This document shows positions 10,601 through 38,664 of a DNA stretch of 38,664 nucleotides, piece after piece. Source of the stretch: Nitrospirota bacterium (GTDB taxonomy: Bacteria > Nitrospirota > Nitrospiria > SBBL01 > JAADHI01); assembly GCA_029261195.1 (NCBI GenBank), contig JAJDBU010000069.1, forward strand, positions 1-38,664. Direction: 5' to 3'. Position 1 is the stretch's first letter; each line of letters begins with the position of its first letter. Position numbers and translations under genes: made by a program. A model generated the notes under the pieces. The model was not told the origin of the DNA and ran no database searches. It saw nothing but the letters and a program-made list of their open reading frames with translations.

Positions 10601-11667
10601 GTGATGAACTTCGTATCTTGGAAGAAGAAAAATACAAGAAGGTTCGAAAATTCCTCGCTGAAAAATTGGTCGGTGTGGATATAGTTGATCCTGAAACGGG
10701 CGAAATCGTCTTAAAGAAAAAGCGGAAAATCACGACAGAGATACTCGATAAGATCCAGGATGAAAGTTTGAAAAATGTGCTTCTGAGTGACAAAAAGGCC
10801 CAGGAAAAAATCGATTACATGGATGCCTTTACGAAGGAGCAGGTTGATATCCTGCAAACCATCTTTGACGAAAAGGTTGGTCGCTTGAAGCGTGGCGATG
10901 AACTGCCACCGGGTGTCATTAAGTTGGTGAAAGTCCTTGTTGCGATGAAACGGAAATTACAGGTTGGGGATAAGATGGCGGGGCGGCACGGAAACAAAGG
11001 TGTCATTTCGAGAATTTTACCCGAAGAGGACATGCCCTACTTGCCGGATGGCACGCCTGTAGAGATTGTTTTGAATCCTCTTGGTGTCCCTTCAAGGATG
11101 AATGTGGGCCAGATTCTGGAAACCCATCTGGGTATGGCGGCACGAGCCTTAGGTCTTCACTTTGCGACGCCGGTCTTTGACGGTGCGAATGAAAAAGAGA
11201 TCAAATCCATGCTCCGTGAGGCGAATCTTCCGGAGAGTGGTCAGACGGTCTTGTATGATGGTTTAACAGGGGAAGCCTTTAAGCGGCCCGTGACGGTGGG
11301 TGTGATGTATATCTTGAAGCTCCATCATCTGGTTGACGACAAAATTCACGCGAGATCCATCGGGCCCTACTCTCTTGTGACGCAGCAACCTCTAGGAGGG
11401 AAAGCCCAGTTTGGTGGACAGCGTTTGGGTGAGATGGAGGTCTGGGCCCTTCAAGCCTACGGTGCGGCATCCATTCTCCAGGAGTTCTTAACCGTTAAAT
11501 CGGACGACGTTCCAGGTCGTTCCCGCATTTATGAGGCGATTGTCAAGGGCGAGCACTTTCTGGAATCGGGTCTACCTGAATCGTTTAATGTTTTGATTAA
11601 AGAGCTTCAGAGTCTCGGACTTGATGTTGAATTGATCCCCGCCGGGGCTCTGGTCAACCCGTCTTGA
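7609..11667 (+). CDS. rpoB: DNA-directed RNA polymerase subunit beta
   Basis: 1352 aa from ATG at 7609, chosen because GGAGG is at 7600-7604 and the N-terminus [19 protein letters not shown] is typical; an in-frame TTG 21 bases upstream is not needed. Forms the catalytic core with beta'. The rifampicin pocket starts [17 protein letters not shown] at residue 536; Q544, D547, H557 and S562 match the E. coli 513, 516, 526 and 531 wild-type residues, so no resistance substitution is visible at these sites. Other landmarks are [35 protein letters not shown] and the C-terminal [13 protein letters not shown]. Size resembles proteobacterial-type beta with lineage insertions. Confidence 0.99.
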
Positions 11668-11719
11668 TTTTACTTATTCCTTTAGGTAAGCACTCCTTAT
11701 TTAAAGGTTCGGAGGTTCA

Positions 11720-14700
11720 ATGGAAACACTGAGTAAGCTTGAAACAGTCAAGACTTTTTTTGACAAGTCAAAGAGCGCCGTCTCATTCGATGCCATTCGT
11801 ATTCGGATTGCATCCAGTGAAAAAATTCGTTCGTGGTCTTATGGTGAAGTCAAAAAACCGGAGACAATTAATTATCGTTCCTTTAAGCCGGAACGGGACG
11901 GCCTTTTTTGTGCCCGTATTTTCGGACCGGTAAAAGACTGGGAATGTAATTGCGGTAAATACAAGCGTATGAAGCACCGCGGCATTGTCTGTGACAAGTG
12001 CGGTGTAGAGGTGATTCAGTCAAAGGTTCGGCGTGAACGCATGGGGCATATCGAACTGGCCTCTCCCGTTGCGCATATCTGGTTTTTAAAGGGCATTCCG
12101 AGTCGACTGGCTATTCTGCTTGATGTCACCCTAAAACATCTTGAGCGTGTGCTCTATTTCGAGAACTACATAGTCGTCGACCCGAAAGAGAGCGGCTTAA
12201 AAGAAAAAGAAATTATCACGGAAGATCAGTATCGCGAAGTCATTGACGAACACGGTCCCTCTGGTTTTGTTGCCGAAATGGGTGCCGAGGCCATCCGGGA
12301 ACTTTTAAAACGCATCGACCCGGAGGAACTCTGGGAAGAGCTTCGGGAAAAGCTCGCCGTAGCGACTTCTGTCGCCGCTACGAAAAAGTTGACAAAGCGC
12401 CTCAAGGTGGTTGAGTCCTTTCGGTCTTCAGGGAATAAGCCTGAGTGGATGATTATGGATGTGATTCCAATTCTTCCCCCGGAACTTAGGCCGCTTGTCC
12501 CGCTCGATGGCGGACGTTTTGCGACATCCGATCTGAATGATCTCTACCGGCGAGTCATTAACCGTAATAATCGCCTGAAGCGGCTCCTGGAATTGAAGGC
12601 CCCCTCAATCATTATTCGTAATGAAAAAAGGATGCTTCAGGAATCTGTTGATGCCCTTTTTGATAATGGACGACGGGGTCGAGCCATTCGAGGGTCCAAT
12701 AAACGGCCGCTTAAGTCGCTCTCCGATATGCTCAAAGGAAAGCAGGGACGCTTTCGTCAGAACCTGCTTGGAAAACGTGTCGACTACTCCGGGCGATCAG
12801 TCATTGTCGTCGGCCCGAATTTAAAATTGCACCAGTGTGGTCTTCCTAAAAAGATGGCCCTGGAATTGTTTAAGCCCTTTATTTATCACAAATTAGAAGC
12901 ACGTGGCGCAGTCACGACCATTAAAAGCGCAAAAAAAATGGTCGAAAAGGAAGCCCCGGAAGTCTGGGATATTCTGGATGAGGTGATCCGGGAGCATCCG
13001 GTTCTTTTAAACCGTGCGCCCACTCTTCACCGTCTGGGCATCCAGGCTTTTGATCCTGTGTTGGTGGAAGGGAAAGCGATTCGTCTCCATCCCCTGGTTT
13101 GTGCCGCTTTTAATGCCGATTTTGACGGGGATCAGATGGCGGTTCATCTGCCTCTCTCGGTTGAGGCGCAGATTGAAGCGCGCGTTTTGATGTTGTCCGT
13201 TAATAATGTACTCTCACCGGCAAGCGGTCAGCCCATTATGGTCCCTTCCCAGGACATGGTTTTGGGTTGTTATTGGTTGACGAAGGAGCGTGCCGGTGCG
13301 AAGGGTGAAGGGAAAACCTTTTCCGGTCCGGAAGAGGTTCGTATCGCGTATGACCACGATGCAGTAGAAGAGCATGCCCTGATTAAGGTGAAGCTTGATG
13401 GGACGCTTGTTGAGACGACTGTGGGTCGGGTTCTTTTTGGTGAGTTACTTCCTCCCAAGATTCCCTTTTCTTCAATCAATAAACCACTAAACAAAAAGGC
13501 GCTCGTCGCCTTGATTTACAAGACCTACCGAGAGGCGAGCCACCAGGAGACCGTTGTCTTTTTAGATCGTGTTAAGGAACTCGGATTTTACTATGCCACA
13601 CGAGCTGGAATCTCGATTTGTATTGATGATATGCATATTCCGACAAAAAAAGGCGATCTTCTTGATAAGGCTCTCAAGGAAGTGAATGAGATTGAAAGTC
13701 AATATGTTGAAGGTTTGATTACAAACGGGGAACGCTATAACAAGGTCGTCGATATTTGGGCGCATGTAACTGATGTGATTGCAACAGAAATGATGCAGGA
13801 GCTGGAACAGGTCGAGGTGAGTTCTGGAGACGGGAAGGCGACGCAGCTCGGGCAGACAAAGTTTAATTCCATTTATATGATGGCTGACTCCGGTGCGCGT
13901 GGAAGCGCACAGCAGATTAGACAGTTGGGCGGAATGAGAGGCCTCATGGCTAAACCCTCCGGAGAGATCATTGAGACTCCGATTAAGGCCAATTTCAGAG
14001 AAGGCCTGACGGTTCTTGAGTATTTTATTTCTACGCATGGGGCCAGAAAAGGTTTGGCGGATACGGCGCTAAAAACTGCAAACTCTGGATATTTGACCCG
14101 AAGGCTGGTCGATATTGCACAGGATGTCATTGTTAAACTCATAGATTGTGAGTCCACTGATTCGATCACCGTCTCAGCACTTGTTGAAGGGGGTGAGGTC
14201 ATTGAGCCTCTGGAAGAGCGGATCTTGGGACGAGTTGCTGCAGAGGATATTCTGGATCCGATTACAGAGGATCTTATCTGTGCTGCAAATGCGGACCTCA
14301 ACGAAGTGCGCACTCAGGCTGTCATTGATTCCGGAATAGATCAAGTGAAGATTCGTTCTGTTTTGACCTGCCAGGCACGTAGAGGCATCTGTGCGAAGTG
14401 TTACGGTCGAGATTTAGCACGTGCTGAGGAAATCGAAATGGGTGAAGCCGCCGGGGTGATCGCTGCACAGTCCATTGGAGAGCCTGGAACACAGTTGACG
14501 ATGCGAACATTTCATATTGGTGGAACAGCAAGTAAAGTCATTGAGCAAACTGTTCTGGAATCGAAGAACAAAGGGGTTGTCAAATACATCAATTTAAATA
14601 CGGTACTCGATAAAGTGGGCGACATGGTCGTCATGAACCGGAACGGTAAAATTGCTATTTTTGATGAAACCGGTAGAGAAAAAGAGAAGTACTCCGTGGT

Positions 14701-37136: not shown

Positions 37137-37290
37137 GATATTTTCGATCCGGGCGCTATTCGATTGTTGTAATGTCAACCTTTTGCGGATAGGGTGTTGT
37201 GCAATAAAACGAAGTAGTCCAAGGCCTAATGGCAAGGTAGAGACAAGTCAACACTGGAATTTTAAATAGATCGTAAAGAAGAAGCAATCC

Positions 37291-38540
37291 ATGAAACAAG
37301 CAGAACTCCACTGGCAACAAAATCAAGCGCTTAATACCCAACACCGTTGTCGGTCGCATACAGCGAACTTTGAGTGCCCTGGGTTTTGATGTGGAAAAAG
37401 TTTTAGGGTTTGCCAAAAAACGAGAGATGTGTCGTGGCAAACTGTCTCAAGGGAGTGAGTGTTATATCGGCCTACCTTGGTTTGAAGTCAACAAGTGTCG
37501 CTACAACAAGAAACACGCCATTGTCGTGGGTGCAGGCATTGCCGGTGTCACTACGGCATGGGCCTTAGCCCAAGGAGGCTGGCTAATCGACTTGATTGAA
37601 CAACACGGGGCCATCGCCCAAGAAGGCTCTGGAAATCCACTGAGCATACTCATGCCACGTATCAGTTTAAATGAGAGTAGGGAGAGCGCGTTTTATAGCG
37701 TGGCTTATTTAAAGGCGATTCGAGAACTCACAAAGTTAAAAAAAGAAGCGCCCGATTTTTCCTGGCAGCAGGGCGGTGTGCTGCAATTGGCCGCAAGTCA
37801 GCGCATCCTCAAACAGATCGACAAATTGAATTGTGCAGATGACTTTGTTCAAGGGCTGTCCGCACAAGAGGCCAGTGAGATCGCCGGTGTGCCGATCAAT
37901 GATAAGGCCCTATTTTTCCCCATGGCAGGCTGGCTAAACCCGAGGGACCTGTGTGAACGTTTGATTAAAGATTCGGAAGGACGGATTAATCTGCACTTCA
38001 ACACGACGATCACTCGTCTTTGTTCTCAAAACGGACACTGGCAGTTATTTAATCAAGAGGGTCAAGTGAAACTTGAATCAGAGGTGGTCGTGCTTGCGAA
38101 TGCCACCCATGCAAACAAATTTCAACAGACGGATTGGCTGCCACTTCAGCCTGCAAGAGGTCAGCTTAGCTTCAGAACTGCGACAACAAAGAGTAAAGGC
38201 ATTCGCTGTGCGATTTGTTATGAGGCCTATGTCTTACCTGAACTTGCTGGAAGGCATGTGATCGGGGCAACATTCAAAAGGGGAGATAGCGGTACTGAAC
38301 TCAGAGCCTGCGATGACAGCGAAAATATGAGAAAATTAGAACGAGGGCTTCCGGGGATTTTTGATGCCAATGATGCTAATGAGATTAGGAACAAAGGTCG
38401 TGCCGCACTCAGAGCCATCACGCCGGACAGAATGCCAATGGTGGGGCCGGTGGCGGATGTCGATTATTTTAAGATCCATTACCACGATTTATATAAAGGC
38501 AAGTCAGCGTCCACTTACCCGAAAGGAGTCAATCCCAAGG
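37291..38540 (+). pseudogene. mnmC: Broken mnmC (tRNA U34 mnm5s2U synthesis protein)
   Basis: MnmC normally joins an N-terminal methyltransferase to a C-terminal FAD oxidase acting on tRNA wobble uridine. Here ATG 37291 opens MKQAELHWQQNQALNTQ, which resembles the family N-terminus, but the frame stops at 37389. The +1-shifted frame carries VVGRIQRTLSALGFDVEKVL and FAKKREM, the end of the methyltransferase domain, near 37346-37428. Roughly 190-200 codons between them are missing. The FAD domain follows: VVGAGIAG, then SGNPLSILMPRI and GAAL-type ALRAITPDRMPMVG. The frame ends at 38548 after NPKVS; the usual last 50 or so residues, with the GSRGL motif, are absent. The MnmC FAD-domain match is strong. 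Confidence 0.75.
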
Positions 38541-38563
38541 TTAGTTGAAAATTGATAGATGAC

Positions 38564-38664
38564 CTATGCTGCTTTTGATTGATTTTGATCTTGAGCGAAT
38601 TTCTCCATATTACTTTTTAGCAGTGGAAGAAACCTATATCCTTTTATCTTTCTGAGCGAAGGTT
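38564..38664 (-). CDS. Transposase-like C-terminus (partial)
   Basis: On the - strand a frame enters from the right edge and stops at TAG (38566-38564), giving 32 residues: PSLRKIKGYRFLPLLKSNME then KFAQDQNQSKAA. The 'LRKIKGYR.LP.L...' pattern resembles C-terminal tails of several transposase families, which I cannot resolve further. It lies where the mnmC sequence stops matching its family, consistent with an insertion sequence inside mnmC. The tail differs from that at the left border, so these are two different elements. Confidence 0.45.
   Translation of the reverse strand, partial: PSLRKIKGYRFLPLLKSNMEKFAQDQNQSKAA

Follow-up and report, generated by a model that had tools for sequence, protein, structure and literature searches.

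The mnmC gene in the analyzed stretch of DNA (the window, namely all 38,664 nucleotides of contig C66 of a Nitrospiria genome, G000) is very probably a recent pseudogene of a bifunctional mnmC, produced by a deletion and by an insertion sequence (IS). The gene has no uninterrupted single reading frame: the frame shifts at 37341/37343, and an IS begins at 38526.

The first 17 codons of mnmC, which form the start of the methyltransferase domain, remain at 37291-37341 on the plus strand. They belong to an ORF of 32 codons (37291-37389) with its ATG at 37291 and its stop codon at 37387-37389. The peptide encoded from 37291, MKQAELHWQQNQALNTQ, shares 11 of 17 residues with the MnmC N-terminus of a same-family relative (locus L010 of genome G002). 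None of 200,000 shuffles equalled the score of this match. This word was also the best of the 39,776 17-residue words in the six frames of the window, with a score of 58 against 27 for the next. The sequence-only reading had taken the segment for an MnmC-like N-terminus and had placed the junction of an out-of-frame internal deletion near 37335-37346, and both proposals are borne out.

To locate the junction, we aligned the two frames of the window copy with three intact relatives (L010, L011 and L012) and the oxidase-only copy L013. Alignment columns 18-193 are absent from the window copy, and the gap amounts to 176 codons less one nucleotide (527 nt), with a one-base frame shift at 37341-37343 on the plus strand; the earlier estimate of 190-200 missing codons was too high. 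The tblastn breakpoints fall at the same place: residues 10-33 of L010 (counted from its open frame, where Met is residue 17) lie at 37270-37341, and residues 210-600 lie from 37343 onward in a different frame. The downstream frame restarts at 37343 with TVVGRIQ, the counterpart of TAVGRVR in L010. The absent segment is the site of ETGFGxGLNF and DAWYLDGF, which are common to all three intact relatives and which take part in SAM binding and catalysis in the MnmC methyltransferase. The alignment thus confirms that an out-of-frame internal deletion removed nearly all of the methyltransferase domain of mnmC.

What is left beyond the junction is the end of that domain and most of the oxidase. The last part of the methyltransferase domain lies at 37343-37441 on the plus strand (PF05430 profile positions 90-122 of 124), where the incomplete domain scores 20.3 bits (E 9.3e-4), below the cut-off of 22. 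The domain linker and the FAD-dependent oxidase domain occupy 37343-38525 on the same strand, and this region matches NF002480 profile positions 194-583 with 336 bits, under the equivalog cut-off of 540 bits; PF01266 also matches in this frame. The frame stays open from 37295 to 38548, and its candidate internal starts are TTG 37370, GTG 37391 and ATG 37427. The 392-aa stretch from TTG 37370 scores 329 bits with NF002480 and 310.6 bits with TIGR03197. It covers positions 1-336 of 400 of the latter, and the rest of the domain is found beyond the IS on another contig, C7.

The oxidase frame is interrupted at 38525 by one end of an IS, which extends from 38526 to 38664, where it runs off the contig. 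The MnmC profile match in the window stops at 583 of 645, and the tail of the gene (NF002480 positions 582-644, 59.7 bits) is found on C7 (16984-17172), a contig of 17,305 bases whose end is 133 bp away. An 8-bp target-site duplication, CCCGAAAG, lies at 38518-38525 on the plus strand, and its second copy stands beside the mnmC tail on C7. A multicopy IS has split mnmC, as shown by this target duplication. The last ~62 residues of the oxidase are lost to the IS, including a GHGxRG-like stretch that contributes to FAD binding in this oxidase fold.

We defined the borders of the IS by lining up contig ends. One end is present in four genome copies (C66, C32, C22 and C71), the terminal 139 bases of C66 recurring on the other three contigs. 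The opposite end, which holds a frame that begins with ATG, occurs in four identical copies (C7, C75, C6 and C5), and a more distant copy of it (78%) is found on C51. The four copies of each end are 99-100% identical over the element. Exact 8-bp duplications were found in three of the four possible end pairs (C66-C7, C32-C5 and C22-C75) and no matching one in the C71-C6 pair; the three pairs permit the linking of their contigs. Because the element is multicopy, contig C66 presumably ends here at a normal repeat break. The minus-strand frame in the IS, antisense to mnmC and with its stop at 38564, looks like the 3' end of a putative transposase gene. Its 32-aa stub gave no Pfam match (the ends of the element alone are read, at contig ends), and the 139-base IS end gave no plasmid match.

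From the deletion of ETGFGxGLNF and DAWYLDGF and the severed oxidase tail, we infer that neither MnmC activity is made and that both have most likely been lost. Methyltransferase loss had been proposed earlier and is supported by the alignment to the three intact relatives. The loss of the oxidase had been put forward as a possibility, and it is strengthened by the IS, a lesion absent from that account.

We also searched 58 genomes for MnmC. Full-length MnmC over the cut-off was found in G002, G004 and G006, G005 carries the oxidase part alone (NF002480 positions 234-644), and G000 carries the broken copy; all five carriers fall within one family of eight genomes. Three of the other seven same-family genomes (G001, G003 and G007) gave no MnmC-level match (best E 1.4e-5 to 1.3e-7). 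In the other 53 of the 58 genomes, the matches reach at most 63 bits and lie all or nearly all in the region that binds FAD/NAD, a pattern that other FAD-dependent oxidoreductases would give; the raw tally of 58 of 58 genomes with a match takes in these weak matches. The copy in G005 (L013/L049; contig C141, minus strand, ~10784-12046) is an MnmC oxidase alone, with its C-terminus intact and no methyltransferase part, and gave no match to PF05430. Here the methyltransferase domain was lost independently of the event in G000, within one family. The G005 oxidase frame starts just past the stop of a gene that, by sequence reading, resembles a calcium-binding-repeat gene. A location of anmK beside mnmC was not found in G002, G004, G005 or G006, the relatives in which both places were located, with gene order viewed in part.

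In a FastTree analysis of 24 oxidase-domain sequences, the window copy groups with L010-L013 (support 0.997), which points to common descent with the MnmC of its family. The MnmC of this family in turn nests among proteobacterial, mostly gammaproteobacterial, sequences, with moderate deeper supports in a small sampling. This suggests that the MnmC of this Nitrospiria family may derive from an old horizontal transfer.

The state of the remaining oxidase bears on the age of the damage. There are no stops in its 392 codons, and it breaks none of 16 columns that are invariant elsewhere. Of the 123 columns that the other four members of the family conserve, it differs at 10, and those members themselves differ at 9-16 of 122-129. 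Long decay, as accelerated evolution of the oxidase would have shown it, was rejected, since no acceleration was found. Because the remaining oxidase frame is undecayed, the loss of mnmC looks recent; the lack of excess decay also fits an interval when selection acted on just the oxidase, so that either a recent loss or retention of the oxidase for some time after the deletion is compatible with the data. If the latter were true, the deletion would have come first, and the oxidase half would have survived as a stand-alone MnmC(o), translated from an internal start, until the IS hit. The oxidase-only copy in G005 speaks for such a course, as do frames of 415-436 aa that encode the oxidase alone, found in Leucothrix, a Thiotrichaceae MAG and others (L086-L088 and L090), and the absence of acceleration in the window oxidase fits a retained MnmC(o). 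Furthermore, the separate MnmC(o) domain of E. coli is described as folded and active (PMC3936742). However, the oxidase frame has no ATG before 37427, no clear ribosome-binding site was seen by eye at the candidate starts, and the last ~62 residues are now severed. A recent loss of both halves accounts for the same data, and we consider this course unlikely.

The sequence-only reading had made the loss of activity depend on there being no second route, and we looked at the rest of the pathway in G000 (3.04 Mb, 77 contigs, estimated to be 99.07% complete). No other convincing PF05430 match was found in this genome. A weak match at C64:54633-54875 was rejected as lying inside a 318-aa frame that, by sequence reading, resembles spermidine synthase and is flanked by frames that read as SpeD-like and decarboxylase-like, and a match at C55:163661-163858 scores 14 bits. 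At this estimated completeness, a second mnmC copy might still sit in an assembly gap. MnmM (PF06962) was absent from all 21 genomes searched, in a search whose controls were positive in 2 of 14. The profile scores of MnmG (C30:123190-125043), MnmE (C30:125114-126454) and MnmA (C18:101432-102487) are above the cut-off. Since these three are intact and neither an MnmC nor an MnmM methyltransferase was found, the wobble uridines of G000 probably end at cmnm5(s2)U34 or nm5(s2)U34. In a genome of the same order (G017:C1:2282787-2284620), MnmG lies in three successive frame pieces, which probably reflect sequencing frameshifts.

A broader history can be imagined, in which MnmC came from Gammaproteobacteria, its methyltransferase half was dropped on two or more occasions (here and in G005) with the oxidase kept for a while, and the lineage thereby adopted nm5(s2)U as its end product at the wobble position instead of a random loss of the pathway; we regard this as quite improbable. 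Still less credible is a collapse or chimeric join in the assembly at 37341/37343 that hides an intact gene: the assembly is indeed fragmented, but the methyltransferase part was not found a second time anywhere in it, MnmC sequence adjoins the plain junction on either side, and mnmC has a further, independent lesion bounded by a clean target duplication.

To return to the recent pseudogene, the internal deletion took nearly all of the methyltransferase domain and shifted the frame, the IS parted the last ~62 oxidase codons from the rest of mnmC, and we propose that MnmE, MnmG and MnmA would leave cmnm5(s2)U34 or nm5(s2)U34 as final product. The loss would have been tolerated, the gene being dispensable, and whichever lesion came first may have relaxed selection on the remainder. 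The case shows how a dispensable tRNA-modification gene was lost through two lesions, and it predicts a measurable tRNA change in this environmental bacterium, where mnm5U should be missing. MnmC has received little notice in Nitrospiria: Cho et al. (PMC9976899) list it in Proteobacteria, Bacteroidetes, Cyanobacteria, Spirochaetia and Archaea, and our full-text literature search found no paper joining 'MnmC' with 'Nitrospir'. Nor did we find, judging by titles, a paper on such decay of mnmC.

The window copy has the same domain order and sequence as bifunctional MnmC, the tRNA (5-methylaminomethyl-2-thiouridine) biosynthesis protein that completes this tRNA modification (NF002480/TIGR03197/PF05430), but it lacks 176 methyltransferase codons, is frameshifted and has an IS inside the oxidase. 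It shares with the stand-alone MnmC(o)-like frames (L013 of G005, L087 of Leucothrix and L090 of the Thiotrichaceae MAG) an oxidase without a methyltransferase in the same gene, whereas those frames keep the C-terminal part (the GHGxRG region in L013) and the window copy is cut before it. Other IS-inactivated bacterial pseudogenes likewise show an IS end in the frame, an 8-bp target duplication and a contig break at a multicopy element. Compared with them, the window mnmC shows nothing unusual: it is an ordinary pseudogene, a dispensable gene inactivated by two lesions that are independent of each other.
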